Positions 1,596 through 18,579 of a DNA stretch of 21,157 nucleotides are shown here, in pieces (positions within the stretch are counted from its first letter, which is position 1; every line of letters begins with the position of its first letter). Source of the DNA: Nitrospinae bacterium RIFCSPLOWO2_12_FULL_45_22 (lineage in GTDB: Bacteria; 2-12-FULL-45-22); the NCBI GenBank assembly GCA_001803565.1, contig MHDQ01000154.1:397-21553 (forward strand), given 5' to 3'. A program made the position numbers and the translations under genes. Under the pieces are notes generated by a model. That model saw nothing but the letters and a program-made list of their open reading frames with translations, was not told the origin of the DNA and searched no databases.

Positions 1596-2642
1596 ATGAG
1601 TTTTAACAAGTTTTGTATGAGTTCATATCTAGCTTTTCGATATGTCGCTAAAGAAGGAATTGCCTGGAAAGATGGCGTTATGCCTCTCTATCCACTGATT
1701 TCTCAACGGAAGCAAATAGGTGTTCGCGATGCAGGTCAGATTCTCGAAGTGCTGCGAAACTTGATGGGCCAGATCTGCAAGGATCAAAGTGTGGGAATTT
1801 TACTCAGCGGAGGGATTGACTCGGGTATATTGGCTGCACTTATGCCGCTTCATTCCCGCGCTTATACCATTCAGTTCCATGCTGAAAATGCGATTGATGA
1901 AAGTTTAAGGGCACGGGCCTATATAGAATGCTACAGTCTGAGACATAGCATCGTCCAGGTTACGTGGGAAGATTATCTTGAGTCAATGGACATTTTGATG
2001 CTTAATAAGAAATCTCCCTTACATCCAGTCGAAGTGGGCCTCTTCAAGGCGGCTTCTACTGCAGCCGCTGATGGTGTTCGAACACTTATTGTAGGCAATG
2101 GCGCTGACTCCACATTTGGCGGCATGGATAAATTGTTATCCCGTGATTGGACATTTGACGAGTTTGACAAACGGTACACCTTTGTAAAGCCTGCAACAGT
2201 GCTTAAAGAACCTGTTCCGATAAGTTCAGTTTATGAAGAATACCGAATAGATGGCGGTGTAGACATCTGTAAGTTTCTGAAAGTTGTGCATGGACGAGGA
2301 ATTATTCAAGCTTTTAACAATGCTATCAGTTCCGCAGGATGTGCAATTATTGAGCCGTATGAATACCTTTTTCTGGATGCCCCCCTGGATATAGCACGCA
2401 TTCGAAAAGGAGAGAGCAAATATCTCTTGCGAAGCATATTTCAGCAGCTTTATCCCGGTCTAGATGTGTGCCTAAAGATTCCTTTTGCCCGGCCAATGGA
2501 TCAATGGATGAAAAATTGGAATGGTCCCTCAAGGTCGGAATTTTTGGATAACTTAGATGCGAGCGAGTTCACTGGAGAACAGAAATGGCTTATATACTGT
2601 TTGGAAAGGTTCATGAATTTATTTGACGGGAAATGGGCATGA
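1596..2642 (+). CDS. Asparagine synthetase-like ATP-dependent amidotransferase/ligase without glutaminase domain
   Basis: The 348-residue protein matches only the C-terminal synthetase domain of AsnB-type enzymes. The PP-loop SGGIDS is at residues 71-76 and a second conserved patch, GNGADSTFGG, at 167-176. The N-terminal Ntn glutaminase domain with its Cys2 is absent: full AsnB is roughly 500-600 residues and this one starts about 70 residues before the PP-loop. Known relatives in polysaccharide clusters adenylate a carboxylate and amidate it, for example uronic acids of O-antigens. With the UDP-glucuronate enzyme immediately upstream, uronamide formation is a reasonable inference, but free ammonia or a separate glutaminase would have to supply nitrogen. 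The start follows AAGGGG at 1583-1588. The 3' end overlaps the next gene, so the two are probably translationally coupled. Confidence 0.75.
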   Translation: MSFNKFCMSSYLAFRYVAKEGIAWKDGVMPLYPLISQRKQIGVRDAGQILEVLRNLMGQICKDQSVGILLSGGIDSGILAALMPLHSRAYTIQFHAENAIDESLRARAYIECYSLRHSIVQVTWEDYLESMDILMLNKKSPLHPVEVGLFKAASTAAADGVRTLIVGNGADSTFGGMDKLLSRDWTFDEFDKRYTFVKPATVLKEPVPISSVYEEYRIDGGVDICKFLKVVHGRGIIQAFNNAISSAGCAIIEPYEYLFLDAPLDIARIRKGESKYLLRSIFQQLYPGLDVCLKIPFARPMDQWMKNWNGPSRSEFLDNLDASEFTGEQKWLIYCLERFMNLFDGKWA

Positions 2643-4135
2643 TTAGTCGCGATAGTTTCACACCAGTTGCTATCACTAAGGTTGCTGGCCAATATCCGGA
2701 CGTTTTTCCATTTAACCCTGACGAAGCGTATCCGGAGTACTCAGGAAGAAATCTCTCAAATGAGCCCAACTATGTATATCGTGCGGTGCGAGAAAGTCTC
2801 CGATTGCTTGGCTGTGACACGGAAAAAGTCGGTAGCAAAGAATGGAACCCCCTCGGTTTTCTTATCGAACCAGGCGATAGGGTATTCATAAAACCAAATC
2901 TCCTCACACATGAGTACAGGAACTCCTTTGGACACAACGGAGACATCTATTCAGTGATAACACATCCATCCATAGTTCGGGCGGTAGCTGACTATGCGGC
3001 AATAGCACTTAAAGGCCAAGGGGAAATCATTATCGGTGACAACCCCTGTATTGATGCCGATTTCAACCGGCTATTAGAGATTACACAGCTTCATTTATTT
3101 GAATCTTTTTACCGTGATAATTTTGGGGTCAATTGTCGCGTCCTGGATCTCAGGCCAATGAGGACAGATAACCTGTACTACTATGGCTTTAAGTCCAAGA
3201 CGAAACAATTGGAAGGTGATCCTGAGTCGAGCTCGATTATCAATCTCGGTGAAAAATCATATTTCTATGGAATGAACCCATTACTTTTTCGAGGAGTATA
3301 TACAAAGCGTTGGGAAACAATAAAACACCATCATGGAAAGGTGCATGAATATTGCATTTCGAATACAGTTCTGAACTCAGACGTTTACATTTCTATTCCA
3401 AAGCTCAAGACCCATCATAAGGTAGGAGTATCACTTAACATCAAGGGTTTAGTCGGCATAAATGCCAACAAGAATTTTCTTATTCATTGGCGTTTGGGGT
3501 TTCCTAAGATGGGGGGAGATGAGTTTCCCCCGCCGCATCGGTTGACCGACTACTTCATCTTAGCCTTGAGGCATCTCTTTCTAGACCTCATCCCGGAAGA
3601 AAAATATTTGTGGTTGAGACAACAGCTAAAAGGCACCAAATTAGACATTCTATTTCAGGATACAAAGTGTCTTTCATTTAAACATTATCGAGGGGCCTGG
3701 GATGGTAATGATACGTGTTGGCGTATGGCGGCTGACCTCTACAACGTATTCGTAAAAGATATAACGGGTTGGAGGCAAAGGAACGGAAAGAACAGGGGGG
3801 TGAAGACATTTTCAGTCCTTGATGGAGTGGTAGCAGGAGAAGGCGAGGGTCCTTTCTGCCCAACGGCCAAACCGGCTCAGTTTATCATAGCTGGAGAGGA
3901 TTTGCTGCTTGTCGATTGTATTGGAGTGCGATTGATGGACTTCAAGCTTGAAGAGGTCAAGTATATCGATCACCTTATCCGAGACAATCAGGTAAATCTG
4001 AATAAGGTAAGCTTGATTTCTGAAGATTTGGATACGGCAAATTTTTTTGACCAAAATAAGAACTACCTCCAGTTTGTGCCTCCTGTTGACTGGAAAAACT
4101 TAACCATCGGCAATCATAGAGGAAACAAACAATGA
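2639..4135 (+). CDS. DUF362 domain-containing protein
   Basis: A 498-residue protein with the DUF362 hallmarks. KPNLL is at residues 85-89, the PKLKTHHKVGVSLNIKG block at about 254-270, and a C-terminal segment with GEGEGPFCPTAKPAQF followed by GEDLLLVDCIGVRLM. The function of the family is not established; some members are fused to ferredoxin domains. Here no ferredoxin CxxCxxC cluster is visible, so an iron-sulfur role is not supported. ATG at 2639 gives a four-base ATGA overlap with the preceding gene and leaves GACGGG eight bases upstream. ATG at 2633 is possible but places that GACGGG only two bases away. The gene also overlaps the next one by four bases, making a coupled operon. A part in making or modifying a glycan building block is suggested only by position. 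Confidence 0.75.
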   Translation: MISRDSFTPVAITKVAGQYPDVFPFNPDEAYPEYSGRNLSNEPNYVYRAVRESLRLLGCDTEKVGSKEWNPLGFLIEPGDRVFIKPNLLTHEYRNSFGHNGDIYSVITHPSIVRAVADYAAIALKGQGEIIIGDNPCIDADFNRLLEITQLHLFESFYRDNFGVNCRVLDLRPMRTDNLYYYGFKSKTKQLEGDPESSSIINLGEKSYFYGMNPLLFRGVYTKRWETIKHHHGKVHEYCISNTVLNSDVYISIPKLKTHHKVGVSLNIKGLVGINANKNFLIHWRLGFPKMGGDEFPPPHRLTDYFILALRHLFLDLIPEEKYLWLRQQLKGTKLDILFQDTKCLSFKHYRGAWDGNDTCWRMAADLYNVFVKDITGWRQRNGKNRGVKTFSVLDGVVAGEGEGPFCPTAKPAQFIIAGEDLLLVDCIGVRLMDFKLEEVKYIDHLIRDNQVNLNKVSLISEDLDTANFFDQNKNYLQFVPPVDWKNLTIGNHRGNKQ

Positions 4136-4932
4136 AAATAATTATACTCGCTGCTGGTAAAGGAGAGAGGCTGATGCCCCTCACCAGAAACACACCGAAG
4201 CCTTTGCTGGATATGGGAAATGGAAGTACCTTGCTGGAAGAGCAAATCAGCAACATACAAGAGTCGGGGGTTATTGATGAGATCGTTTTGGTGATTGGCT
4301 ATTTGGCGGAGCAAGTGGAGGCAAAGATCAAGTTGCATCTTATCAATGGCATTAATATCAAGACAGTTTTCAATCCATTTTATGAAGTATCAAATAACTT
4401 AATGTCATTGTGGTTGACCAAACATGAAATGGATGATGACTTCATGGTTACAAACGGGGACAACTTGTTCAGTCCCGAAGTTTTTAAAGGTTTAGTAGAA
4501 GAGAATAGCGAGGGAATATTTTTATCGGTCAGTATTAAAGACAAGTACGATTACGACGACATGAAAGTCACCCTTCAAGACAATCTAGTAGCCCGGGTAA
4601 ATAAGAGGATTGAAATAGAACAAACCCATGGCGAATCCCCAGGTTTGGCTATGCTCAGAGGCGCCAGGGCTAGAAATCTATTTAAAGATCATTTGGAGAT
4701 TCTTGCGAGAAACAAGAGGTATATCAACACCTTCTGGCTCGAAGTGTTTAATCTGCTCTATGAAAGGGGTATCCCCGTGAATCCGTGGATGTTTGATGGA
4801 ACAACCCAGTGGCAAGAGGTTGATTTCCATGTTGACGTGGAGAAAGTAAAATCTGTTTTGCAACCAAAGATGAAGCTATTTTTCTCCATAAGAGACCCCG
4901 AAGCTAAATGCGAAAAAATAGCTACGAGGTAG
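4132..4932 (+). CDS. LicC-like nucleotidyltransferase (sugar- or headgroup-phosphate)
   Basis: A 266-residue GT-A-fold nucleotidyltransferase that should couple NTP to a phosphorylated sugar or small alcohol, releasing pyrophosphate. The nucleotide-binding loop AAGKGERLMPLT is at residues 7-18 and KPLL at 23-26. The metal/nucleotide motif NGDN is at 108-111 and a second probable metal ligand is Asp231 in QEVDF. The block NPFYEVSNNLMSLW resembles LicC-type CTP:phosphocholine cytidylyltransferases and related headgroup enzymes more than glucose-1-phosphate thymidylyltransferases. Substrate cannot be fixed from sequence alone. The start overlaps the DUF362 stop as ATGA. A nearby gene begins with a CDP-glycerol-transferase-like domain, which makes a CDP-activated product an attractive inference. 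Alternatives are sugar-1-phosphate uridylyl- or guanylyltransferase. Confidence 0.8.
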   Translation: MKIIILAAGKGERLMPLTRNTPKPLLDMGNGSTLLEEQISNIQESGVIDEIVLVIGYLAEQVEAKIKLHLINGINIKTVFNPFYEVSNNLMSLWLTKHEMDDDFMVTNGDNLFSPEVFKGLVEENSEGIFLSVSIKDKYDYDDMKVTLQDNLVARVNKRIEIEQTHGESPGLAMLRGARARNLFKDHLEILARNKRYINTFWLEVFNLLYERGIPVNPWMFDGTTQWQEVDFHVDVEKVKSVLQPKMKLFFSIRDPEAKCEKIATR

Positions 4933-4936
4933 AATG

Positions 4937-5746
4937 ATGGCCCTCCTCGAAGCACCGCACACAATGTACCAATGCGAAGACCCAATGCTAGAAACAGAGG
5001 GGTACTTTTGGAGATCATCTACAGAACGCCTTGCGAAATATATTACCGACAAATACCAGTTGAATCCCACGTCAAGTTGTATAGTTTTTGATGCCTTGAA
5101 CGTCATCGAACAATTCTATAGAACTAGGAAGTCGATAACTTGCAGTGGTCATACTATTGATGTGACATCAAGCCCAATCCTTGCAGAAGAAGGGCGGGTT
5201 TTATTGCGACTGGCGATAAATGAAAGAGTTCAACATACGCTTGAAGTCGGATTTGGATTTGGCATGTCTACCTGTCATCTGCTCACCGCTCACGAGGTTA
5301 CCGGAGGGTTAGAGCATTTGGCTATCGATCCCTTAGAGCAAAGTAAATACTATCAAGGCTGTGGGTTGATGAATGTTTTCCAAGCCAGATTGGGATCACG
5401 CTTCTTGTGGATTAAAGAGCCCTCAAATATTGCCTTGCCAAGGTTGCTTTCCTCGAGGAATCAATTTGATTTCTGCTTTATTGATGGGAGCCATATATTC
5501 GGAGATATATTTGTTGACTCCTATTATATCAATTTTCTACTTGGATACGGAAGGGTGCTGGTTCTGCATGATGCATGGCTTTCTGCAACGCAGACAGTTC
5601 GCAACATTCTTATTACCAATTTTGGATTCAGAGAAGAGCCAGATTCTTCTGTACCTAACTTAGTGATATTGAGAAAAGTTGGGGAAGGCAAACTCGACTG
5701 GAAAGAGTTCTCTACTCAATTTGAGCCATTTAAGGTGTCAGGGTAG
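4937..5746 (+). CDS. Class I SAM-dependent methyltransferase
   Basis: A 269-residue protein with a Rossmann methyltransferase core. Motif I is EVGFGFGMST, with Glu103-Gly109. The FIDGSH motif (Asp183-His186) and the following VLHD strand are typical of the Methyltransf_24 group, which O-methylates sugars and small molecules in many glycan clusters. The first ~100 residues have no recognised domain. ATG codons stand at 4934 and 4937; 4937 is seven bases after GAGGT (4925-4929) and is preferred. The preceding gene ends five bases upstream and the next starts 20 bases downstream, so it belongs to the same operon. A role in methylating the glycan or its precursor is inferred from context; the acceptor is unknown. 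Confidence 0.8.
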   Translation: MALLEAPHTMYQCEDPMLETEGYFWRSSTERLAKYITDKYQLNPTSSCIVFDALNVIEQFYRTRKSITCSGHTIDVTSSPILAEEGRVLLRLAINERVQHTLEVGFGFGMSTCHLLTAHEVTGGLEHLAIDPLEQSKYYQGCGLMNVFQARLGSRFLWIKEPSNIALPRLLSSRNQFDFCFIDGSHIFGDIFVDSYYINFLLGYGRVLVLHDAWLSATQTVRNILITNFGFREEPDSSVPNLVILRKVGEGKLDWKEFSTQFEPFKVSG

Positions 5747-5766: not shown

Positions 5767-8700
5767 ATGTTAATTGATTTCTATACCTACAGTATCCACG
5801 AGATTATTGTTTGGGCGTATATCTGGAAAGCATTGTTACGTCGTGGCGTAGAAGCTCACTTCATCGTTGAACCACCAGGGCTAAACACCACTTATGGCTC
5901 GAAACCCGATAAGACGCGAGGATACCTCGACATAAAAACCGAAAACTTAGTTCCCCTGATGACGCCTGATGCCTATAAAGATATTATTGGTTTTCTTCAA
6001 GAGAGTGGTTATCCATACGAAACCCGTGGTCACTACAATGCCGATGCGGTTGTCACAGCACTTGGAATATACCATTTATATAGATACCGGGGTCTCAAAC
6101 TTAGAACGCTCTATGGGTCCCCTGCACACAAAGACGCGTTTGGATATCATGAAATCAATAAGGGTTTGGATGCAGTATTTGTACACGGTGACTTCACCCG
6201 GGAGTGCATTCAAAAGTGGCTCCCAGCAGAAGATGTAATTATTACGGGTTATCCAAAGTACAGCCTTTTTTTTCGTGGGGAGGTTGATACCAATTCTTGG
6301 TCTAAGCGATTTAGGTTGGATCCCAACAAAAAAACGGTCGTATACTTTTCTACATGGGCACACAACAGCTCCCTGGACAGCTTTGCGGAGGAGATTGCAC
6401 AACTGGGAAAAACTTACAATGTGCTATACAAACCCCATCACAATAATTTACACTTCGAGTATGAACGTTATGATTTACTTCGAAAAGTTACTGGAGTGAT
6501 AGTTGAGGAGAGAGTGCGCACCATTGTCCCGTTCTATGCAGTAGCTGATATTGTTCTGGCGGACGCACGGAGTGGAAGCTTTACGGAGGCATTCTTAACT
6601 AATCGCCCAGTTATCGGCTTATCGCCCTATGACGATCCGGAAAAAGACTATCTGATTGATGGTATTTATGAAGCGGCACCTGTATGTCGTAATCCACATG
6701 AATTACCTGAACTAGTGGCAGAATTGATCGCCCATGATACCTATATCCAAGACCGGCAAAAACTTGCGCGTTATCTTTTCACTAGCTTCGATGGAAGGGA
6801 CGATGAAGTTACCGCTGACGGAATAATAAAAGTTGTAAGGCGGAAAACTGCTAAACCAGCAGTTACCGGAGATCATTTCGTCTCTCATACTAGCGATGGG
6901 AGCAATAGCAGGGCAGCTCCCACAACCTCAAACGGTCCCACATTCAGCATCATCATCCCTACGCACAACCGTTCGGCGATTCTGCGAAAATGCCTCGATG
7001 CCTTAGCGGTTCAGACATTCTCATCCAATGGATTCGAGGTCTTTGTCTGCGATGATGGTTCTACAGATGATACAGAAGAGATTATTAAGGGTTACTCGTC
7101 CCCTTACAAGCTTACTTATCTCCGTCAGAATAATCAGGGACCAGCATCGGCACGTAATAGGGGAATACGCAAAGCAAGAGGGGAATACCTATTATTTTTA
7201 AATGATGATGCAATTGTCGAACCTGGCACTCTCTCCATACATCACGAAACACTCAATGCCCATAAACGAGAGAAGATTGCAGTGCTTGGAAGGTTTTCGA
7301 TGCTGCCTGAGTATACAAAGTCGCCATTCGGTTATCTTTTAGAGAATTTAGGTGTGTTGTTCAGGTACACCATCATGCAGTCTGGGCAACTCTACATCAT
7401 GCAGTCTGGACAACTCTATGATTACAACTTTTTTTATACCTGTAACCTTAGTATTTTGCGTCAAATCGTCCTTGATGTCGGGATGTTCGATGAAGACTTC
7501 ACAAGCCCGGCTGGAGAAGACCTTGAGCTGGGATACCGACTTCAGAAATATGGATATCGAGTATTTTATGAGCCTAAAGCTGTCACCTGGCACGATCACC
7601 TCATCTCTCCTGAAGGTTTTTGCAATATCCATAAAGTTCGTGGTGACGGGTCAGTAACATTGAACGTTAAGCACCCAGGGCTAAACTGGTACAAAGGGCT
7701 CAACCATACCGTCGTTGATCAATGGAGGCAAAGTATTAATGAACTATCTCAGAAAATCCCCAAGATATTAACCGAAATCAATAAAATAACTAGATCAACA
7801 CCATACAATTGTAATCCGCATACTCTTCACAAAATTGCCGAACAAATCTCTCCAGAAGTGGAACTTCTGCAACAGTACTATAGTACGCAAGGGTCTATAT
7901 CAAGCCCGTTGCTGGAGCGTTTGATTGAGATATGTTCAGGTAGTACACGCTCACATAAAAACCATAATTCCCTGGACCCTTCTAAACTTATAGTGGAAGC
8001 AGGGCGTGGACTCATTAAAGAGCCCATCAGAAAAGACCTTTCTGGTTATCCCCTGGTAGTTGGGAAAAAGGCCAAAGAAAAATCGCATAAACCCATGCTA
8101 TCTGTAATTATCCCCACAAGGGAGCGGGCAGATGTCCTTAAAGTTTCCCTGGAGGCGTTAGATAAGCAAACCATTCCAAGGGAATTATATGCAGTCGTTA
8201 TAATTGATGATGGATCGGGAAATACCGGCTATGACTGGATAAAAGGATGCGGATACGGGTATCAGATAAAGGTGCTTAACCAAGATAAGAAAGGGCCAGC
8301 GGCGGCGCGGAATCTGGGTATTAGAAATGCTGAAGGAGGCCTTCTCCTATTTATGAATGATGATGCGATTGCTGACCCAAGGCTGCTGGAAGAGCATCTG
8401 AAAGCCCATAATAAGAATGAAGATAGTAAAGTCGCGGTCTTGGGTGGTTTCCACCTAGCAGAGTATAAAGAATCCCTATTTATGAGCCTATTGGAGAATA
8501 CTGACTTACTAATGAGCTACCGAGACATGAAACCCGGCCAACTCTATGACTTTAATTATTTCTGGACCTGCAACATTAGTGTTCCCCGAGAGGATGTAAT
8601 AAGGGTAGGGCTCTTTGATGAAGATTTCACTGAACCTATGACAGAAGATGTAGAGTTCGGGTATCGGCTGGAAAAGATGGGCTATAAGGTGCTCTATTGG

Positions 8701-11289
8701 CCGGAGGCATACTGTGAGCACAAACACAGCTTTAGTTTTGCCAGCTTCTGCCAAAAACAACTTATGTGTGGTAGAAATTTTGTCAGACTGGTCACCAGGC
8801 ATCCTGAAATAATGGTCCAAGCCTATGGTGTTGACCATTTCACCCCGGAAATATTGGATATTTTCAGAAAAGATTTAGCAACTGATCGTCATAGAATTGA
8901 TTCGTTCGAGGGGCTATTCCATTCCATAGAAGGGCTAAGGATAAAAGACTATGCTAAAGTCTCAGAAATCTTTGCCCATACCTTCTCTTCTTTAGAAGAA
9001 TGCTTTCAGATATTGGGCCCTCTTATCTGGCAAATCCGGCACTATCACTGGAAGCGAGGTGTGCTACAAGCGATGGAAGCCAGGGATATCACGGTTGAGT
9101 CATCAACAAGACGGATCCAACAAAAAACTTCTCAGATACCTACTCAAACACCGAGGAAGGTCTTGCTCAGTAATCCACCCTGGTTTGCCGAGAATGGGGC
9201 AATATGGGGCATACGGGCCGGGAGCCGATGGCCTTTTACCACAGAAGTGGGATGCCCTTACTATCCTTACCCATTCCTCCTGGGATATGCCACCAGTTGC
9301 TTGCTGGAAAATGGGATAAATGCCTGGATGGTGGATTCTATCCTTAGCCGGGAGTCATTAGCTTCTTATTATCGGCGGATTCAAGAAATACAGTTCGATT
9401 ATGTAGTAATTGAGACCTCTACTCCGAGTAGTGATAAAGATCTGGTTATTGCCCAGGAAGTGGCCAGGTATAGTAAAGTCATCCTTACCGGACCGCATGC
9501 TACTGTCTTTGCTGATGAGCTGGCAACTAAGCCATACATTCATGCCGTCTTGAAGGGGGAGTATGAGAAGAATCTCCTTGAGGCCGTGCGCAGTGGTAAG
9601 CCGGGCATTTACGATTATGACCTGGTAGAAGATATAGATAGCCTCCCCTATCCATACCGTGATTCTACTATTTATCGTTATTGCGACCGCTTCCCGGTAA
9701 CTCCCGCCGGCCCAGCCCTCCAGATGTGGGGGAGCCGGGGTTGTCCTTACCGGTGTATATTCTGTCTCTGGCCCCCGGTTATGTATAAAGGCAAGTTCCG
9801 CATGAAGCGACCAGGAGCCATAATCAGGGAGATCGAAGAAGTACTGGCGGCTTACCCTCGCTTTACCAGTATCTACTTCGATGATGATACATTCAATATA
9901 GGCAAAGACAGAATATGGGAGATATGCGATGGACTAAAACAGATTGGTCTCCCCTGGGCAGCCATGTGCCGGGCAGATACGGTTGATGTGGAAACCTTTA
10001 GGATCATGAAAGACTCTGGATGCTATGCGGTAAAATTTGGTGTGGAGAGCGGCTGCCAGGAATTGGTAGACCGCTGCCAGAAGAAACTTGATCTGAAAAC
10101 CGTGGAAGAAAATATCAGAGAGGTACGGAAGATGGGCATCTTTGTCCATACTACCTTTACCTTTGGCCTGCCCGGGGAGAGTATTAAGTCCATCAAAGCC
10201 ACCCAGCGGTTTTATAGGCACACCCGGCCCGATAGTTATCAACAGAGTTGCTGTACGCCGTTCCCGGGCACACCTTTTTATGATATATGGGGAAAAGCCA
10301 ATATCAGCAATAGTGATAGTTTCAGGTGGGATAAGCTGGATGGTAATAAGGGTTGTGTGATGGGTGGCAATGGCCTTTCAGCCGAAGAAATCACCTCCCT
10401 GGGAAAGGTAGAGAGCCAATGTTTTGTCTGGGGGCGGATGCTAAGGAGGCATATGGGGCCCTGGCTGGTTAAGGCAGCCCAGGAGTTGGGCTATAGAGCC
10501 TTTGCCTTAGATAATATCGAGCCTCACCCGGTGGCTATTAGCCTGCTTCTAAAGGCCAGTCCCTTAGATATATTTATTGCCGATAGAGGTGTAGGGCTTA
10601 CACCAGACATTCTAAAACTCATCAAGGCCAAGAAGGTCCTCTATTATCCTGATATTCTACCTACCCTCTACGCCACTAATCTTCACGCTGGACTAAGGTA
10701 TGCAGAGTTCCGTAACATAGCCCCATATTTCGACTACATAGTTCTTCATGATGACGAAGCGCTGCCCTACTTGATAGAGAAGGGCCATAAAAATATTGTG
10801 GGCAAGATAGTTTTACCCTTTGAGGCAACCCTCCACAAAAAGATACCGCTGCCCAAGGAGTATGACCTTTTATTCTTCGGCACCCCCTCTGAATATCGGC
10901 AAAGCTGGTTGGCATATATCGAGGAGAAATATCCGGTTTTTTACCCCACGGTCTTTGAGGACGAATTAGTCCGGGTGATAAACCGCTCCAGGATTATCCT
11001 GAATCTTCACTATACACCCTTACCAAATACCGAGCACCGGGTTATTGAGGCTATGGCCTGCGGGGCCTTTGTCCTATCCGAACCCCTGGCTGATAGAGAC
11101 CTGTTTGAAGAAGGAAAAGAGCTCGTCTATTTCGATAAATCAGATGTCTTCGATAAGATAGGTTACTACCTTTACCACGAGGAAGAGCGGGAGGAAATAG
11201 CTAGCTGGGCCTGGCAAAAAGTAACCGCTCACTTCTCAGCAAAGGATCAGTTAAAAAACCTTCTGGAACTATGCGGGGAGGAGGTCTAG
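5767..11289 (+). CDS. Five-module glycosyltransferase / radical SAM fusion protein
   Basis: An 1840-residue cytoplasmic protein with no evident signal peptide. Residues 1-360 resemble the GT-B fold of CDP-glycerol glycerophosphotransferases (HGDFTRE, YKPHHNN, DARSGSFTEAFLTNRP). Residues 392-640 form a GT2 domain (CDDGST at 428-433, NDDA at 479-482, catalytic-base ED at 584-585). Residues 777-1020 form a second, homologous GT2 domain (DDGS from 814, NDDA at 864-867, ED at 960-961). Residues 1132-1310 resemble a B12-binding domain but lack an obvious DxHxxG. A radical SAM core follows with Cys1326, Cys1330 and Cys1333 (CX3CX2C) and GLPGES. Residues 1560-1840 are a CgeB-like GT-B (EAMACG at 1761-1766). 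GAGGT at 5755-5759 precedes the ATG. An in-frame eight-residue duplication lies in the first GT2. It likely builds and chemically modifies one glycan; acceptor and sugars are unknown. Base composition shifts near residue 777. Confidence 0.85.
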   Translation: MLIDFYTYSIHEIIVWAYIWKALLRRGVEAHFIVEPPGLNTTYGSKPDKTRGYLDIKTENLVPLMTPDAYKDIIGFLQESGYPYETRGHYNADAVVTALGIYHLYRYRGLKLRTLYGSPAHKDAFGYHEINKGLDAVFVHGDFTRECIQKWLPAEDVIITGYPKYSLFFRGEVDTNSWSKRFRLDPNKKTVVYFSTWAHNSSLDSFAEEIAQLGKTYNVLYKPHHNNLHFEYERYDLLRKVTGVIVEERVRTIVPFYAVADIVLADARSGSFTEAFLTNRPVIGLSPYDDPEKDYLIDGIYEAAPVCRNPHELPELVAELIAHDTYIQDRQKLARYLFTSFDGRDDEVTADGIIKVVRRKTAKPAVTGDHFVSHTSDGSNSRAAPTTSNGPTFSIIIPTHNRSAILRKCLDALAVQTFSSNGFEVFVCDDGSTDDTEEIIKGYSSPYKLTYLRQNNQGPASARNRGIRKARGEYLLFLNDDAIVEPGTLSIHHETLNAHKREKIAVLGRFSMLPEYTKSPFGYLLENLGVLFRYTIMQSGQLYIMQSGQLYDYNFFYTCNLSILRQIVLDVGMFDEDFTSPAGEDLELGYRLQKYGYRVFYEPKAVTWHDHLISPEGFCNIHKVRGDGSVTLNVKHPGLNWYKGLNHTVVDQWRQSINELSQKIPKILTEINKITRSTPYNCNPHTLHKIAEQISPEVELLQQYYSTQGSISSPLLERLIEICSGSTRSHKNHNSLDPSKLIVEAGRGLIKEPIRKDLSGYPLVVGKKAKEKSHKPMLSVIIPTRERADVLKVSLEALDKQTIPRELYAVVIIDDGSGNTGYDWIKGCGYGYQIKVLNQDKKGPAAARNLGIRNAEGGLLLFMNDDAIADPRLLEEHLKAHNKNEDSKVAVLGGFHLAEYKESLFMSLLENTDLLMSYRDMKPGQLYDFNYFWTCNISVPREDVIRVGLFDEDFTEPMTEDVEFGYRLEKMGYKVLYWPEAYCEHKHSFSFASFCQKQLMCGRNFVRLVTRHPEIMVQAYGVDHFTPEILDIFRKDLATDRHRIDSFEGLFHSIEGLRIKDYAKVSEIFAHTFSSLEECFQILGPLIWQIRHYHWKRGVLQAMEARDITVESSTRRIQQKTSQIPTQTPRKVLLSNPPWFAENGAIWGIRAGSRWPFTTEVGCPYYPYPFLLGYATSCLLENGINAWMVDSILSRESLASYYRRIQEIQFDYVVIETSTPSSDKDLVIAQEVARYSKVILTGPHATVFADELATKPYIHAVLKGEYEKNLLEAVRSGKPGIYDYDLVEDIDSLPYPYRDSTIYRYCDRFPVTPAGPALQMWGSRGCPYRCIFCLWPPVMYKGKFRMKRPGAIIREIEEVLAAYPRFTSIYFDDDTFNIGKDRIWEICDGLKQIGLPWAAMCRADTVDVETFRIMKDSGCYAVKFGVESGCQELVDRCQKKLDLKTVEENIREVRKMGIFVHTTFTFGLPGESIKSIKATQRFYRHTRPDSYQQSCCTPFPGTPFYDIWGKANISNSDSFRWDKLDGNKGCVMGGNGLSAEEITSLGKVESQCFVWGRMLRRHMGPWLVKAAQELGYRAFALDNIEPHPVAISLLLKASPLDIFIADRGVGLTPDILKLIKAKKVLYYPDILPTLYATNLHAGLRYAEFRNIAPYFDYIVLHDDEALPYLIEKGHKNIVGKIVLPFEATLHKKIPLPKEYDLLFFGTPSEYRQSWLAYIEEKYPVFYPTVFEDELVRVINRSRIILNLHYTPLPNTEHRVIEAMACGAFVLSEPLADRDLFEEGKELVYFDKSDVFDKIGYYLYHEEEREEIASWAWQKVTAHFSAKDQLKNLLELCGEEV
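7372..7419 (+). repeat. 24-base in-frame tandem duplication in the first GT2 domain
   Basis: Two adjacent 24-base units (7372-7395 and 7396-7419) differ at two positions. They encode IMQSGQLY twice, residues 536-551 of the large protein. The paralogous GT2 domain further down the same protein has a single DMKPGQLYD at the equivalent place, so the second copy is an insertion. It is near the acceptor-binding region of the GT2 fold, before the TCN motif. Confidence 0.9.
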
Positions 11290-11389: not shown

Positions 11390-14300
11390 TTGAAGATAGG
11401 GCTGCAACTGCCGGTAATCAATACCTTTAGGGCGGCGGTGTGGGGAGATGAAGTAATGGCTGTAGGTCTGGCAGATGCCTTATCCAGCCTGCCTGAGGCA
11501 GAGTTTGCTGAGGTTTATAGCCCGGTCACTATCCACGACAATCTGGATATAGTGATAAATTTTTATCCCTTCCCTGACGTGAGGCAGGTAGCAGGCCCGG
11601 CGCAATTCTGGTGGTACCAGGCCTCTATCTCACCCTGGGTGAGGAACCACCCCGATTTTACTAAGCTGCTTACTCTTTATAGGGGCTTTTTTGTGGCCAG
11701 CCCCAATCTGGCCACCGAATTGATAGAGCTAGGGGTACCGCAAGATAAAATCATGTTTTTGCCTATGTCAGCTAATAGCCGATTTTATCGGCCTGTAGCC
11801 CCACAAGCTAAGTATGCCCATAACCTGGTCTTCTGTGGTAATAACCACCCGGGTCGGACCAGAGAAACTATTGAGCGCTATCTATTGCCGATACGGGAGC
11901 TGGGCCTGGTGATCTATGGTAATGGTTGGGACGATATACCAGAATTAAAGGATTGCAGCCAGGGACCAATGCATCCCAAGGAGGTACCGGCCCTATACTC
12001 TTCAGCCAGGATCATCCTTTCTACCCATCCGCAATGGCACCGCCTCATGGATGTCCCTACCTCCAGGCTCTGGGAGGCCGCGGCCTGCTCGGCCTTTATC
12101 ATCTCCGATAAATTGCCCACTGCCCGCCAACTCTTCGGAGATACTATAGTCTGGACAGACGGTTGGGATGACCTGCGAGAAAAAGTCCGGTATTATTTAG
12201 AGCATGAGGAAGAGCGGAAGCAGGTTGCTCAGGAGGCCTACCAGCTTGTTCTTTCACAATATACCTTTGACCATTGGGCCAACAAAATTATGGGATTTGT
12301 CCAGGATAGACTTCAGGAAAAGGAGAGACCCTCCCCAGTCATAAATAAATCTTCTACTCAAGAAATACCTTTAGTTAGTGTCATTGTTCCTACTTATAAC
12401 CGGCCTGAGATGCTGGAAGGGGCTATAAGAAGCATTTTAAACCAGACTTATTCTGAGATAGAAATCCTGGTAGTCAACGATGGTGGAGAGGAAACAGAAC
12501 AGATCATAAACTCTCTGGATAAAGATCATAAGATTACTTACATTAAACACAGTCAGAACCATGAGCGCTCAGCCGCCAGGAATACAGCCTTGAAGCTGGC
12601 TCGAGGGAAATATATTGCCTATCTGGATGATGCCGATATTTTTTACCCGCATCACCTGGAAACCCTGGTCAATTTCCTGGAGAGCAACCCGTATAAAGTA
12701 GCTTATACCGATGCCCTTAGAGCGCATCAGGTGAAGGAGGAGGATGGGTATAAGATTATCAAAAAAGACCTGCCCTACAGTATGGATTTTTCAAAGGAAT
12801 TATTGCTTGTGCAAAACATCGCCCCCATCCTCTGTTTTATGCATGAAAAGTCCTGCTTAAATGAGGTTGGTCTATTTGATGAAACCCTTACTACCCATGA
12901 GGATTGGGACCTCTGGATTAGGATGTCCAGAAAATATGATTTTGCCCATATAGAGATGATAACGGCCGAGTTTAGGACGAGGGAAGATGGCTCCAGTACG
13001 ACCAGTGGGCGGCTGCCAGATTTTTTAAGAACCATGGAAATCATATTTAAAAGGTACGAAGAGCATACAAAAAACAAACCCCAGATTATAGAGTTGCAGA
13101 ATAAGCGATTGGAATGGTTAAAGGGAGAAATCCATAAGGCCGCCAATCTTGTAAAATCAGAAAAAAGTCCCGGCCACATCAAGACCAGCATCGTGATAGT
13201 AACCTACAATTCCCTGTCCGACATTAAATCCTGTCTGGATAGCATTGGGTCTAACACTGGACTCCCCTATGAAATTATCATTATTGATAATGCCTCTACC
13301 GATGGCACCCAGGAATATTTAAAAACCCTGTCCCAGGCGAAGATACTCCTCAACCGGACCAATAACGGTTTTTCTCGGGCCTGCAATCAGGGGATCAGAG
13401 AGGCTAAAGGGGAATACATTGTTTTGCTGAATCCAGATACCCTGATCACTCAAGGCTGGGACACCAGGATGATTGATCATTTTAAGGATGGCGTTGGTGC
13501 GGTTGGGCCAATATCTAATTATGTGGCTGGCGTACAGAAGTGCGACCTATACCTGAAAGGAAACCTTAATGGAGAAAGGGATATCGAGGGGCTGGCGGCT
13601 AGATTTTATCAATGGAACCGCGGTCAGGCAGTCGAGACCAAGCTCCTGATTGGTTTTTGCCTCGTTCTGAAGCGGGAGGTAATAGATAAGGTAGGGCTTT
13701 TGGATGAGGAGTTGTTCCTGGGTAATGATGACCTGGAATACTCGTTGAGACTGCGCCGCCACGGCTATAAACTGCTAGTAGCAACCGATACCTTTATCTA
13801 CCATAAAGGTCAGGCTAGCTTCCAATCGGAACTCCAATCGTATACCCAAAGATTGGTTCAGGAAAGCACCGATATCTTATATGAAAAATTGAAAAAGATT
13901 TATAAGGATGAAGAGGTACCTACCAGTCAGGAGCTATGGGGAATAGACTGGTTTCGTCCCTCCCCTACACTCTTAGACCATGCTCCGGAGTCCACAGGTA
14001 CAAGGCTGACTGCCGACTCTCATCAAGGCGATTATCGGACACGAACTACTGATTATAAATCTCGAATACCAGACCCTAATGAAACCCTCACCAGTATTGT
14101 TGTCCTTACTTATAACCAGCTCGAATATACCAGCCAATGTCTCGCCAGTATAGAACAATACACCTCAGGGTATCATGAACTGATCCTGGTAGATAATGGC
14201 TCTACAGACGGTACAGTGGCATACCTGGAGGGCCTGGTAAAAGCGGCTAATGGCCACCGGCATAAACTCATCTGTAATAAAGACAACCTGGGTTTTGCTA

Positions 14301-15175
14301 AGGGTAGCAATCAGGGGATTGAGCAGGCCTCAGGGGACTATATCCTCCTGTTGAATAATGACGTTATAGTCACAGCCGGCTGGTTAGAAAGGATGCTAGC
14401 CTGTTTTGAGCGGGATAGTTCGGCAGGTATAGTAGGGCCCTGCTCCAACCGTGTCAGTGGGCCCCAATTGGACCTAGAGGCAAACTACAATACTGTAGCA
14501 GAGATGCAGGAATATGCCCAGAAATTTAGTTGTAAAAATAAAGGAAGGGTCTTGGAATCACCCAAGCTAGTGGGATTCTGCCTCCTGATAAAGCGAGAGG
14601 TATTAGACAAGATAGGGCTGTTGGATGAGAGATTTGGCAGTGGTAATTTTGAGGATGATGACCTCTGCCTACGGGCCCGCCAAGCGGGCTACAAATGCCT
14701 CATTGCCCGGGATGTATTTATCCACCACTTTGGCGGACGGAGTTTTAAAGGGAATAGTATTGATCGGTGGGACCATTATGAGAAGAACTTGGGGCTCTTC
14801 GTTGAGAAATGGGGCTTGAAAGGCCCGGATAAAAAGGAATCCCTCGAAAAGCTCGGCATCCCACGCCGGGTCTATGCTAGCTATTATAATGACCTGGGAG
14901 AGAGATATTACGCTGATGCTGAGCTAGAAAAGGCCAAAGGACTATTTTTAGAGGCCATAGAGATAGATGCTAATTTTCCCCACGCTTATAACAATTTGGG
15001 AGTAATCGCCTGGCAGGAAGGCGATAAAGAAAGGGCCCTCCAGTTGTTCTTACGGGCCTATAGCCTGGATGGGCAGGATGGTGATGCTTTGGCTAATCTG
15101 GTATCGTGCAGCGGTGAATTGGGCCGTTATCAGGAGCTAGAAGACGCCTTAATAGAAGCCTCGCATAAAGGGTAA
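11390..15175 (+). CDS. Multi-domain glycosyltransferase (GT-B, three GT2, TPR)
   Basis: A 1261-residue protein probably assembling several residues of the same glycan. Residues 1-310 are a CgeB-like GT-B domain (Glu229 in RLWEAAACSAF) homologous to the C-terminus of the preceding protein. GT2-1 spans about 329-560 (VNDGG, LDDAD at 412-416, HEDWDLW). GT2-2 spans 599-830 (NPDT from 681, NDDLE from 779). GT2-3 spans 900-1150 (NNDV from 989, EDDDL from 1088). GT2-2 and GT2-3 are clear duplicates. Residues 1164-1250 hold two TPR-like units that may bind the protein acceptor. The start is TTG: upstream purine-rich AGAGG is at 11381-11385 and the first strand MKIGLQLPV fits a GT-B N-terminus; no ATG lies nearby in frame. 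The linker at 864-899 is hydrophilic and poorly conserved-looking. It follows the 1840-residue gene after 100 bases. Confidence 0.87.
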   Translation: MKIGLQLPVINTFRAAVWGDEVMAVGLADALSSLPEAEFAEVYSPVTIHDNLDIVINFYPFPDVRQVAGPAQFWWYQASISPWVRNHPDFTKLLTLYRGFFVASPNLATELIELGVPQDKIMFLPMSANSRFYRPVAPQAKYAHNLVFCGNNHPGRTRETIERYLLPIRELGLVIYGNGWDDIPELKDCSQGPMHPKEVPALYSSARIILSTHPQWHRLMDVPTSRLWEAAACSAFIISDKLPTARQLFGDTIVWTDGWDDLREKVRYYLEHEEERKQVAQEAYQLVLSQYTFDHWANKIMGFVQDRLQEKERPSPVINKSSTQEIPLVSVIVPTYNRPEMLEGAIRSILNQTYSEIEILVVNDGGEETEQIINSLDKDHKITYIKHSQNHERSAARNTALKLARGKYIAYLDDADIFYPHHLETLVNFLESNPYKVAYTDALRAHQVKEEDGYKIIKKDLPYSMDFSKELLLVQNIAPILCFMHEKSCLNEVGLFDETLTTHEDWDLWIRMSRKYDFAHIEMITAEFRTREDGSSTTSGRLPDFLRTMEIIFKRYEEHTKNKPQIIELQNKRLEWLKGEIHKAANLVKSEKSPGHIKTSIVIVTYNSLSDIKSCLDSIGSNTGLPYEIIIIDNASTDGTQEYLKTLSQAKILLNRTNNGFSRACNQGIREAKGEYIVLLNPDTLITQGWDTRMIDHFKDGVGAVGPISNYVAGVQKCDLYLKGNLNGERDIEGLAARFYQWNRGQAVETKLLIGFCLVLKREVIDKVGLLDEELFLGNDDLEYSLRLRRHGYKLLVATDTFIYHKGQASFQSELQSYTQRLVQESTDILYEKLKKIYKDEEVPTSQELWGIDWFRPSPTLLDHAPESTGTRLTADSHQGDYRTRTTDYKSRIPDPNETLTSIVVLTYNQLEYTSQCLASIEQYTSGYHELILVDNGSTDGTVAYLEGLVKAANGHRHKLICNKDNLGFAKGSNQGIEQASGDYILLLNNDVIVTAGWLERMLACFERDSSAGIVGPCSNRVSGPQLDLEANYNTVAEMQEYAQKFSCKNKGRVLESPKLVGFCLLIKREVLDKIGLLDERFGSGNFEDDDLCLRARQAGYKCLIARDVFIHHFGGRSFKGNSIDRWDHYEKNLGLFVEKWGLKGPDKKESLEKLGIPRRVYASYYNDLGERYYADAELEKAKGLFLEAIEIDANFPHAYNNLGVIAWQEGDKERALQLFLRAYSLDGQDGDALANLVSCSGELGRYQELEDALIEASHKG

Positions 15176-15192
15176 TTAAGGAGAATAAGGTT

Positions 15193-16863
15193 ATGAGAGA
15201 GGAAAGAGCAAAAAACTGTACTACCCCTAAGCTATCGCTCTGTATGATTGTTAAGGATGAGGAGAAGGACATCTCTGGTTGCTTAGAATCGGTTAAAGGA
15301 GTGGTGGATGAAACCATTGTAGTGGATACTGGCTCTACCGACCGGACCGTAGAGATTGCTAAGAGCCTTGGTGCCCGCGTCTATTCCTTTAGCTGGTGTG
15401 ATGACTTTGCGGCGGCCAGGAATGAATCCATCCGTCATGCTACTGGCGACTATATCATCTGGCTCGATGCCGATGATCGAATAGAAGGGGCAGAGGTTCA
15501 AAAACTCCGGGAATTAAAGCAGTGCTTCCCCCGGGCTAAGAACCGGGCTTATGCCCTCCAACTACAGAGCCCTAGAGGTGGTCTGGTAGAAGATTCTTCT
15601 TATCAAACCAGGATATTTCCTAACCTGCCCGGGGTCTGCTTTGAGGGGATCATCCACGAGCAGGTAGGTCATTCCCTCCAGAGATTACGGGTCCCTTTTG
15701 AATGTGTCCCCATCAAGGTGACCCATTATGGGTATAGCGATCCTAAACATTTGCCCGAAAAGGCCGAACGGAACCTGGGGCTACTCTTGAGGCAGGAAAA
15801 GAAAAACCCTTCTGATTATGTCAATCAATTCCACCTGGCAGAAACCTATGGGGCATTAGGAAACAAGGCTAAGGCCCTGGAGCATTTCAAAAAAGTCATC
15901 TACGAAACCAATTGCCAAAACGAAAACCACTATATACTCCTGGCCGCATATCTTGAAATAGCTAAGCTCTATAAAGAAATGTCTTTATACAACATAGCTA
16001 CGAATACTCTGCACGAGGCGGCCCAACTCTTCCCTGATAATTCGCTGATAAGATTCCATCAAGGGGAAGTCTATTTCTGCCTGAGGAGATACGAAGATGC
16101 CCTTAAAGAGCTTTTTCTGGTCAAAGAGGACGAACTGGACCTGTTTGTGATCCCGATACCCACAAGGGCCATCAGCTATCTGCTCCATTACTATAAGGCC
16201 AGATGCTATCAGGTATTAGCTGATCAAGCCGGGGCACAAGATACCCGGGGCAGTTTAGAAAAGGTCAGGGAAGAATATGAAAAGGCCTTGCAGTGGAACC
16301 CCAATGCTGTCGAGTGCCTAACTGATCTGGGTACTATCTATCTTAAAAGTGGTATGCTGGAAAAGGCCCGGGAACTATTAGAAAAGGCCCTGTCCCTGGG
16401 TAGGAAAGATTCGGCTCTTTATTCTAACCTGGCGCTGGTTTATGCCAGGCAGGGTGATGATATGCGGGCAGAACAATGGTATCAAGAGGCCCTTAAAATA
16501 GAGCCAGATTTGATCGAGGCCCTAACCAACCTGGGCCACCTCTATCTGCGAAATAACCGCTTAGAAGAGGCAGAAAGGACCTTTATGCAGGTAGTATCGA
16601 ATGGCCTGGAGAATGGTGGGCTGGTAGATGTGCATCTGGCCTTAGGTTATATCTATGCCCAGAGATTTGAAATAGAGTATTGCGTGAGGGAATGTGATCG
16701 GGCCCTGGCGTTGCTGGATATGCCCAGAGATATGGTACTGGAGAAATTAGAAGACCTGGTACAACTCTATAACGACATTGGGGTAAGATTAGAAAATGAT
16801 AATCGCCTCGCTGAAGCCCTTATGGGGTTCCGTACTGCGGTGCTATTAAGTCGTGCCGGTTGA
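15193..16863 (+). CDS. GT2 glycosyltransferase with TPR repeats
   Basis: A 556-residue protein. Residues 9-230 form a GT2 domain of the kind seen in SunS-like and TPR-linked glycosyltransferases: LCMIVKDEE, DTGST at 45-49, WCDDFAAARN and LDADD at 91-95. The rest is TPR: units start near 209 and 255, and three well-formed units lie at about 370-475 with the usual A-x-x-x-Y/G-x-x-A spacing. TPR arms on such enzymes commonly bind the polypeptide to be glycosylated. This makes it the best candidate in the window for putting the first sugar on flagellin. The ATG follows AAGGAG at 15178-15183. It starts 17 bases after the preceding stop, so it is in the same operon. No membrane segment is apparent. 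Confidence 0.88.
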   Translation: MREERAKNCTTPKLSLCMIVKDEEKDISGCLESVKGVVDETIVVDTGSTDRTVEIAKSLGARVYSFSWCDDFAAARNESIRHATGDYIIWLDADDRIEGAEVQKLRELKQCFPRAKNRAYALQLQSPRGGLVEDSSYQTRIFPNLPGVCFEGIIHEQVGHSLQRLRVPFECVPIKVTHYGYSDPKHLPEKAERNLGLLLRQEKKNPSDYVNQFHLAETYGALGNKAKALEHFKKVIYETNCQNENHYILLAAYLEIAKLYKEMSLYNIATNTLHEAAQLFPDNSLIRFHQGEVYFCLRRYEDALKELFLVKEDELDLFVIPIPTRAISYLLHYYKARCYQVLADQAGAQDTRGSLEKVREEYEKALQWNPNAVECLTDLGTIYLKSGMLEKARELLEKALSLGRKDSALYSNLALVYARQGDDMRAEQWYQEALKIEPDLIEALTNLGHLYLRNNRLEEAERTFMQVVSNGLENGGLVDVHLALGYIYAQRFEIEYCVRECDRALALLDMPRDMVLEKLEDLVQLYNDIGVRLENDNRLAEALMGFRTAVLLSRAG

Positions 16864-17067: not shown

Positions 17068-17094
17068 TAAAGTTTTTTCCTGACATACCGATAA
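17068..17094 (+). promoter_or_regulatory. Sigma-28 (FliA/SigD) promoter of flagellin
   Basis: TAAAGTTT (17068-17075), exactly 11 bases, then ACCGATAA (17087-17094). This matches the flagellar sigma-28 consensus TAAAGTTT-N11-GCCGATAA at 15 of 16 positions. Transcription should start near 17101, giving a leader of about 140 bases before the flagellin start codon. It places flagellin under the late-class flagellar regulon, separate from the upstream glycosyltransferase operon. Confidence 0.9.
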
Positions 17095-17155: not shown

Positions 17156-17202
17156 GGCCCTGATTTCAACCCATCCAATAACCAATAACCATTTACCAAT
17201 GT

Positions 17203-17231
17203 GGGCAAGGATGCCCCGATAATCAAGGAGG
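17203..17231 (+). promoter_or_regulatory. Putative CsrA binding region over the flagellin ribosome binding site
   Basis: GGGC (17203-17206) pairs with GCCC (17213-17216) and presents AAGGAT in a six-base loop. CAAGGATG contains the core of the CsrA recognition consensus with GGA in the loop. A second CAAGGA lies at 17224-17229, inside the flagellin Shine-Dalgarno AAGGAGG (17225-17231). The two GGA cores are 18 bases apart, a spacing one CsrA dimer can bridge. In Bacillus subtilis, CsrA represses flagellin translation through two such sites in the hag leader. Neither csrA nor fliW is in this window. Confidence 0.6.
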
Positions 17232-17239
17232 ATAGAACC

Positions 17240-18064
17240 ATGGGATTAAGAATCGCTAATAATATTGCAGCTATGACTACCCACCGCTGGCTAGCCAAGG
17301 CCGACAATGAGCTGGGTAAGTCACTGGAAAGGTTGTCTTCTGGCTACCGGATCAACCGGGCTGCGGATGATGCTGCGGGTCTTTCGATTAGCAGCAGGTT
17401 CCGGGCACAGATAGTTAGCTTGCAGGCAGCCTCTAGAAACACCTCTGAGGCCAATGCCCTGGTGCAAGTGGCTGAAGGGGCCATGAATGAGACCAATAGT
17501 ATCTTGACCCGATTAAAAGAGCTGGCTACTCAGGCCGCTTCCAGTAACGTTAGCACGGTTGACATAGGGAAGATCAATGAGGAGGCTAACGCACTTCTGC
17601 TGGAAATAGACCGGATTGCCAATTCTACTAAGTATGGTGGTACTGCCTTGCTCAATACCAGTTATGCCGGTACCTTCCAGGTTGGCTATGAGAACGATGT
17701 CCAAAGTCAGATCTCTTTTACTATCTCATCGGTAACTACCACTGGTATAGGTTTGGGCACGGTAGATATAATGAATAGCCAGGCAACGGCCCAGGCGGCC
17801 CTTACTACCATAGACAGCGCTATCAGTACCCTGGCTACCCGCCGTGGTAACCTGGGCGCTATCCAGAACCGACTAACCTATGCCTCAGCTAACCTGGCCA
17901 GTACCGTCGAGAACTACCAGGCTGCTGAATCGGTCATTCGCGATGTGGATATGGCCTGGGAGATGACGAGTTTTACCAAGAACCAGATCCTACTCCAGTC
18001 TGGTACGGCTATGTTAGCACAGGCAAATCAGTCCTCGCAGGTAGTGCTGCAGCTCTTTGCCTAG
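17240..18064 (+). CDS. fliC: Flagellin
   Basis: A 274-residue secreted filament subunit. The N-terminal D0/D1 helices (GLRIANNIAAMTTHRWL, SLERLSSGYRINRAADDAAGL) occupy about residues 1-140. The C-terminal ones (NRLTYASANLASTVENYQAAESVIRDVDMA to VLQLFA) occupy about 205-274. The middle is only ~65 residues, so D2/D3 outer domains are missing and the filament should be thin and smooth. A Ser/Thr cluster SSVTTTG (163-169) in the D1 linker is a likely exposed site for O-glycans. ATG at 17240 is set by AAGGAGG eight bases upstream and by the conserved N-terminus; GTG at 17201 would add 13 unrelated residues. Expression is probably set by the sigma-28 promoter and possibly CsrA. Export is by the flagellar type III system, so no signal peptide is expected. 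Confidence 0.96.
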   Translation: MGLRIANNIAAMTTHRWLAKADNELGKSLERLSSGYRINRAADDAAGLSISSRFRAQIVSLQAASRNTSEANALVQVAEGAMNETNSILTRLKELATQAASSNVSTVDIGKINEEANALLLEIDRIANSTKYGGTALLNTSYAGTFQVGYENDVQSQISFTISSVTTTGIGLGTVDIMNSQATAQAALTTIDSAISTLATRRGNLGAIQNRLTYASANLASTVENYQAAESVIRDVDMAWEMTSFTKNQILLQSGTAMLAQANQSSQVVLQLFA

Positions 18065-18192: not shown

Positions 18193-18579
18193 ATGGACAT
18201 TGAAGGGGTAAAGCTCCAAATCGCAAATATTTTGGGCTCTGGCGACTGGTCCGGTAAAAAGTCTAGGGCTGAGCTCACAACTGCAAAAAAGCCGGTTAGA
18301 GCGGACGAGAAGGAAGAGACCCAGCCAAATCAAAAGGGCGAAAAGCAACGCCTCTCACCTGAAGAGATAAAGGAGGTTCAAGCGCGGATAAATGAGGCTT
18401 TACGTCATATGAATTACCAGATCAAGTTATATATTGATAAGCCTACGGGGCGTATTGCCGCGGAGATTATTGATAAAGAGACTAATGAGGTTATCCGCGA
18501 GATACCAGAAAAGGAGCTCCTGAAGCTGGCCGCTAAGATCCGGCAGATGACTGAGAACGTTTTTGAGCACTATGCATAA
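18193..18579 (+). CDS. flaG: FlaG family protein
   Basis: A 128-residue protein with a charged, disordered N-terminal half. Residues 50-128 carry the FlaG domain: SPEEIKEVQARINEALRHMNYQIKL, then a beta hairpin with DKPTGRIAAEIIDKETNEVIREIP, then a closing helix. FlaG is a small flagellar protein, not a filament subunit, that in several bacteria affects filament length; the mechanism is unsettled. AGGTGAT (18181-18187) lies five bases before the ATG. It sits in the usual place between flagellin and the cap gene. No separate promoter of sigma-28 type is visible, so read-through from fliC is likely. Confidence 0.9.
   Translation: MDIEGVKLQIANILGSGDWSGKKSRAELTTAKKPVRADEKEETQPNQKGEKQRLSPEEIKEVQARINEALRHMNYQIKLYIDKPTGRIAAEIIDKETNEVIREIPEKELLKLAAKIRQMTENVFEHYA

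Follow-up and report, generated by a model that had tools for sequence, protein, structure and literature searches.

A radical SAM unit inside a glycosyltransferase chain of a predicted flagellin glycosylation island from a Nitrospinae bacterium

Introduction

Radical chemistry on attached sugars is exemplified by HpnJ and AprD4. In hopanoid biosynthesis, HpnJ forms a cyclitol ether from lipid-linked glucosamine that was attached by the glycosyltransferase HpnI (PMC12583986). The hpnI, hpnJ and hpnK genes are adjacent. In apramycin biosynthesis, the radical SAM 1,2-diol dehydratase AprD4 deoxygenates the sugar of paromamine, a pseudodisaccharide, in concert with its reductase partner AprD3 (PMC5461906). 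For flagellin glycans, adding and tailoring on a single polypeptide has been proposed in Clostridium difficile type B, where the GT2-methyltransferase fusion CDR20291_0242 would add and methylate rhamnose (PMC5207246). The flagellin loci of C. difficile type A (CD0240-0244) and Pseudomonas aeruginosa PAO1 (PA1088-1090) carry methyltransferase and phosphate-linked cap genes (PMC4441256), and the TPR domain of FlmG binds flagellin in the cytoplasm (PMC7591256).

Here we analysed a 21,157-nucleotide stretch (the window) of Nitrospinae bacterium RIFCSPLOWO2_12_FULL_45_22. A sequence-only reading had singled out a chain of 1840 residues in which a radical SAM enzyme is embedded among glycosyltransferases, and had noted no described example of this domain order; our search of the open-access literature likewise found no published radical SAM unit inside a glycosyltransferase chain.

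Results

The chain lies in a predicted flagellin glycosylation island

All window genes discussed here are on the plus strand. Upstream of the chain are genes for a UDP-glucose 6-dehydrogenase-like nucleotide sugar dehydrogenase (209-1504; TIGR03026, 481 bits against a cut-off of 189.8), an asparagine-synthase-like, ATP-dependent amidotransferase protein (1596-2642; Pfam), a DUF362 protein (2633-4135; Pfam), a LicC-like NTP transferase whose closest solved structure is CTP:phosphocholine cytidylyltransferase (4132-4932; 1jyk, 4e-17), and a Methyltransf_24 class methyltransferase (4934-5746; Pfam). Downstream, a second chain combines a CgeB-type GT-B, three GT2 domains and TPR (11390-15175; Pfam), and is followed by a GT2 with TPR repeats (15193-16863; Pfam); these TPR-bearing transferases recall FlmG. 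Then come flagellin (17201-18064; PF00669 and PF00700), for which an alternative ATG 39 bases inside is a possible start, FlaG (18193-18579; PF03646) and FliD, truncated by the window end (18703-21157; PF02465 and PF07195). The best sigma28-like promoter match in the window, with one mismatch, lies 5′ of flagellin (17068-17094). The gene content, with glycosyltransferases and sugar enzymes encoded next to flagellin and fliD on a single strand and with flagellin, FlaG and FliD downstream of the chain, is that of a flagellin glycosylation-type island.

Domain architecture of the 1840-residue chain

The chain is encoded by one ATG-to-stop frame (5767-11289) of 1840 codons with zero internal stops. 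A Pfam domain search bore out the domain list and order of the sequence-only reading, namely a glycerophosphotransferase (GPT)-like domain, two GT2 domains (GT2a and GT2b), the radical SAM unit and a CgeB-type GT-B. The first of these, the CDP-glycerol glycerophosphotransferase-like (Glyphos_transf) domain at residues 1-345 (5767-6801), is a weak assignment: PF04464 matches residues 137-342 at 24.4 bits (1.7e-5), which places the domain with the TagF type just over the cut-off of 22.1. Its sequence found no PDB match below E 0.05, and relatives were absent from the viral contigs, plasmids and PDB entries searched.

GT2 was matched twice (Pfam, E 2.7e-51 for the whole protein). GT2a (residues 391-640; 6937-7686) carries DDG, NDDA and GED motifs in the alignment, and GT2b (residues 770-1020; 8074-8826) was delimited by Pfam and by alignment with GT2a; PF00535 scores over its cut-off and the DDG, DD and ED motifs assign them to the GT2 family. 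The two are 44-45% identical, which points to an internal duplication. A much smaller repeat was seen within GT2a, where a 24-base tandem duplication (7372-7419; residues 536-551) codes for IMQSGQLY twice; the copies differ by two synonymous changes, and GT2b has a single copy.

GT2b is joined to the radical SAM unit by residues 1021-1127 (8827-9147), predicted with low confidence to be a helical linker. The radical SAM unit, a B12-binding-like Rossmann domain plus a radical SAM barrel, spans residues 1128-1545 (9148-10401), and the CgeB-type GT-B spans residues 1575-1840 (10489-11286), with PF13524 (Glyco_trans_1_2/CgeB-like) matching residues 1726-1833 over its cut-off (1.1e-19). A predicted model of residues 746-1840 had a pLDDT of 58, mostly below 50 in GT2b and CgeB. 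It is poor outside the radical SAM unit, and we therefore make no claim on interfaces or geometry. We also considered whether the radical SAM unit could be made separately from a start inside the frame, and rejected this: judged by eye, the position of the ATG in the stand-alone relative is AAG here, and the sole nearby in-frame ATG has a badly spaced Shine-Dalgarno-like GAGG.

The radical SAM unit and its kinship to HpnJ and AprD4

Radical_SAM (PF04055) matches residues 1323-1482 at 59.1 bits against a cut-off of 29.5 (8e-16). The CX3CX2C iron-sulfur/SAM motif, which had been read as intact, is indeed so: Cys1326, Cys1330 and Cys1333 (9742-9765) are conserved in 30 of 30 relatives. Together with the TIM-barrel core of the fold, these matches put the unit in the radical SAM superfamily. 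N-x-P-W, G-x-R-A-G-S-R-W-P, CX3CX2C and YFDDDTFN are nearly invariant in the alignment; the conserved positions of the family signature, here GIRAGSRWP (residues 1148-1156; 9208-9234), are kept in 27-30 of the 30 relatives, among which is one paralogue from the same genome that lacks the AGSR part.

The AGSR core is also present in annotated HpnJ, and HpnJ (TIGR03471) ranks first among NCBIfam families. However, the score of 195 bits is under the cut-off of 577.6, and the window protein falls outside the HpnJ clade in the tree; we thus rejected a true HpnJ. AprD4 is the best PDB match both by sequence (8e-24) and by fold (Foldseek E 4.6e-18; VIA-align Z 31.5, rmsd 3.2 over 386), the latter with an AlphaFold2 model of the unit of pLDDT 79.7 and pTM 0.83. 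The AprD4 family (NF033070) scores 91.8 bits against a cut-off of 500, which leaves the unit outside that family as well. Taken together, the sequence comparisons assign it to a family close to HpnJ and AprD4, which we call GxRAGSRWP after its signature. A link to defence was dismissed, the sole PADLOC match being a weak one (PDC-M51A) to the radical SAM core.

The B12-binding-like part held up by fold, as a Rossmann domain, but not by motif: the window protein has no match to Pfam B12-binding (PF02310) and no DxHxxG in its translation, features that are not universal among cobalamin-dependent radical SAM enzymes. This bears on the possibility that the unit is a cobalamin-dependent C-methyltransferase making a branched-chain glycan sugar. 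Its Rossmann domain sits in the B12-binding position, the cobalamin enzymes MgmA (second in the fold list), OxsB, TsrM and CysS are among those ranked next after AprD4, and some family members (L072, L073) do reach Pfam B12-binding. Set against these are the missing motif and Pfam match in the window protein itself, the first rank of a dehydratase, AprD4, and NCBIfam methylase families that score far under cut-off. We consider such a methyltransferase quite unlikely.

In two genomes of one phylum, chains some 1500 residues long carry a member of the radical SAM family N-terminally (L073:758-5353 and L100:2619-7136); the remainder of the L073 chain holds two more radical SAM domains, with SPASM.

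Relatives occur in sugar cassettes

The nearest relative, L022, comes from Ca. Desantisbacteria, where it stands alone within a flagellar locus. It is 63-64% identical, begins where the linker of the window chain ends, and is preceded by the genes of FliW, of CsrA and of an SDR that most resembles CDP-tyvelose 2-epimerase. In the tree, the window protein and L022 are sisters (99/93) beside Azospirillum and SAR11; HpnJ is placed elsewhere, in a region of the tree into which a paralogue from the window's own genome also falls. Several SAR11 loci have the gene order radical SAM, GT2, SDR, SDR, and Azospirillum has SDR, SDR, radical SAM with glycosyltransferase genes on either side. In four further genomes (G236, G249, G413 and G418), GT2 and radical SAM are fused and both SDR types come next. 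Across the cassette genomes the SDRs correspond at 51-78% for one type and 35-63% for the other, and the best PDB match of the Azospirillum pair is CDP-tyvelose 2-epimerase. The window GT2 domains are just 20-23% identical to the cassette GT2s, and their substrates may thus differ.

No flagellin accompanies the sugar cassettes in which the SAR11 relatives are found. This speaks against a peptide target, in which the unit would modify flagellin itself or another peptide and only be housed in a glycosylation protein, as does the lack of a SPASM domain anywhere in the chain (Pfam). Protein-modifying radical SAM enzymes do exist, MgmA in the fold list being one, yet we regard a peptide target as most improbable.

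The SDRs raise a further possibility. The SDR families found next to other members usually work on nucleotide sugars, so that radical chemistry may come before transfer: the unit would take a nucleotide-activated sugar such as a CDP-sugar as its substrate, and the fusion would merely channel the product to GT2. SDRs most similar to CDP-tyvelose 2-epimerase occur with family members of several phyla as well as in the flagellar locus of Desantisbacteria, and the genome of the window encodes one. On the other hand, the nearest characterised relatives, HpnJ and AprD4, work on glycosides, and the window island has no SDR linked to the chain. We find this order of events rather doubtful. The SDR of the own genome is on contig C265 (L113:10330-11379), beside a second SDR and away from the flagellar island.

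Linkage to glycosyltransferases also extends to stand-alone members. In L081, from the wider clade of the window protein, 4 bases are common to the radical SAM gene and a CgeB-type glycosyltransferase gene. The 47 genes at most two places away from stand-alone members gave 8 GT-B and 4 GT2 matches, against 1 GT-B and 2 GT2 matches for the 29 genes at a distance of five to six places; the enrichment is suggestive, and the numbers are small.

The family and its kin were met in other settings too. In the cultured strain Azospirillum brasilense Sp7, the SDR, SDR, radical SAM cassette with its flanking glycosyltransferase genes is on plasmid ABSP7_p5 (L108:9735-13731). Plasmid pl03 of Lawsonia intracellularis has an HpnJ-like radical SAM gene (L110:6837-8300) in a sugar cluster that also encodes GT2 and GalE-like proteins and several methyltransferases. 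Viral contigs of IMG/VR (L115-L139) carry stand-alone genes of the GxRAGSRWP family at 36-44% identity, several adjoining a nucleotide-sugar SDR and two near tape-measure genes; the viral gene had zero matches in 50,697 GenBank phage records. In three viral copies (L136:2275-4596, L137:4998-6740 and L138:1245-3098), intein-like inserts lie directly before the second cysteine of CX3CX2C, that of L136 with an additional, apparently endonuclease-like stretch.

The fusion has arisen more than once

The sequence-only reading would have been undermined by relatives showing that the modules are separate genes here. The nearest relative, L022, is stand-alone, yet GT2-radical SAM fusions occur in four other genomes: in L072 (G236), where a GT-B follows, and in L074, L098 and L099 (G249, G413 and G418), which are from another phylum. 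These fused forms make up their own clade (98/92). One clade of the window protein and the other fused forms was rejected by the AU test (p = 0.0002; p = 0.016 with L022 added), which rules out a single fusion event. Thus, the GT2-radical SAM fusion arose at least twice. The exact five-domain order was seen in the window genome only, in a search of 386 genomes that were mostly of other phyla, with one further genome of the window's own.

These data also weigh on whether separate genes were joined into a chimaeric chain during assembly. The window lies on a contig of 21.5 kb; the draft genome, apparently assembled from a metagenome, amounts to 3.67 Mb in 321 contigs. The nearest relative of the radical SAM unit is stand-alone. 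Furthermore, GC3 rises from 0.43 to 0.54 near the GT2b/radical SAM part, with the best change point at residue 1259 (0 of 1000 permutations), a step that fits a mosaic origin and is by itself also compatible with a misjoin. Against a chimaera, the join is in frame and at a domain border, and the L022 match runs without a break across the change point. Moreover, GT2-radical SAM and GT2-radical SAM-GT-B fusions exist in unrelated genomes, in a separate clade, which makes a pure artefact of assembly very unlikely.

Discussion

We propose that the chain works in the cytoplasm as a multifunctional enzyme, both assembling and tailoring a portion of the flagellin O-glycan; we give this proposal an even chance. 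Its domains, the intact GT2 and radical SAM motifs, the family, the flagellar setting and the recurrent linkage to glycosyltransferases all support such a role. We infer that the substrate of the radical SAM unit is a flagellin-glycan sugar and that the radical step follows transfer, and the chemistry suggested below is of the same standing. The coupling of radical chemistry to sugar transfer, as first suggested from the sequence, is supported because HpnJ and AprD4 act on attached sugars, the family is linked to GT2 and nucleotide-sugar SDR genes, and the neighbourhood is flagellar. The chemistries then offered fared unevenly: methylation has the least support, and dehydration/deoxygenation (as in AprD4) or rearrangement (as in HpnJ) fits better. 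Our best reading is thus that a hexose is tailored by radical chemistry during flagellin-glycan assembly, more likely by dehydration/deoxygenation or rearrangement than by methylation.

In the proposed sequence of events, the TPR-bearing transferases (11390-16863) would bind flagellin and start the glycan, which GT2a and GT2b would lengthen. The 5′-deoxyadenosyl radical formed by the radical SAM unit would abstract a hydrogen atom from the hexose just attached, which would then undergo AprD4-like dehydration/deoxygenation or HpnJ-like rearrangement of its ring or skeleton; an SDR encoded elsewhere possibly finishes the product. CgeB would attach a further sugar. Finally, the GPT-like domain may cap the glycan with a phosphate-linked group that the LicC-like cytidylyltransferase activates and the neighbouring methyltransferase methylates. 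The LicC-like enzyme may provide the GPT-like domain with a CDP-activated group, and the presence of the two enzymes together with this domain suggests, by analogy, a phosphate-linked, methylated cap. This gene set, side by side in the window, resembles those of C. difficile type A and PAO1, in a comparison of how the systems work and not of orthology, but a phosphatase-type partner was not recognised in the window.

Several differences from the known systems should be noted. First, the unit shares with HpnJ, which works with the GT2 HpnI and with HpnK, the AGSR core and the Rossmann plus radical SAM layout, and HpnJ acts on a hexosamine once the glycosyltransferase encoded next to it has attached it. 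However, HpnJ belongs to another clade, the unit scores below its cut-off, and HpnJ is unfused and has a lipid target, whereas that of the chain is presumably flagellin. Second, AprD4 is the closest solved structure by sequence and fold, but the identity is 24%, the family score falls short, and AprD4 lacks fused transferases. Third, CDR20291_0242 is likewise a flagellin glycan enzyme for which adding and tailoring on one chain is proposed (PMC5207246), though with a classical methyltransferase instead of a radical SAM unit and with a single GT domain. Lastly, the fusions L072, L074, L098 and L099 have the same radical SAM family behind an N-terminal GT2, but form a separate clade, have one GT2 of the cassette type and lack the GPT-like domain; no flagellin was seen near them within the stretches examined.

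More broadly, and only tentatively, a single cytoplasmic polypeptide may polymerise a glycan and rebuild its sugars in place by radical chemistry, giving a carbocyclic, deoxy or otherwise novel flagellin sugar, with a stand-alone version doing likewise in SAR11, Azospirillum and tailed phages. A. brasilense Sp7, whose plasmid ABSP7_p5 encodes the radical SAM protein and both SDRs, offers a cultured organism. If the proposal is true, radical SAM chemistry would join the few known ways in which bacteria diversify protein-bound glycans, and the widespread, unnamed GxRAGSRWP family, with its GT2 and two SDRs, would gain a testable function.
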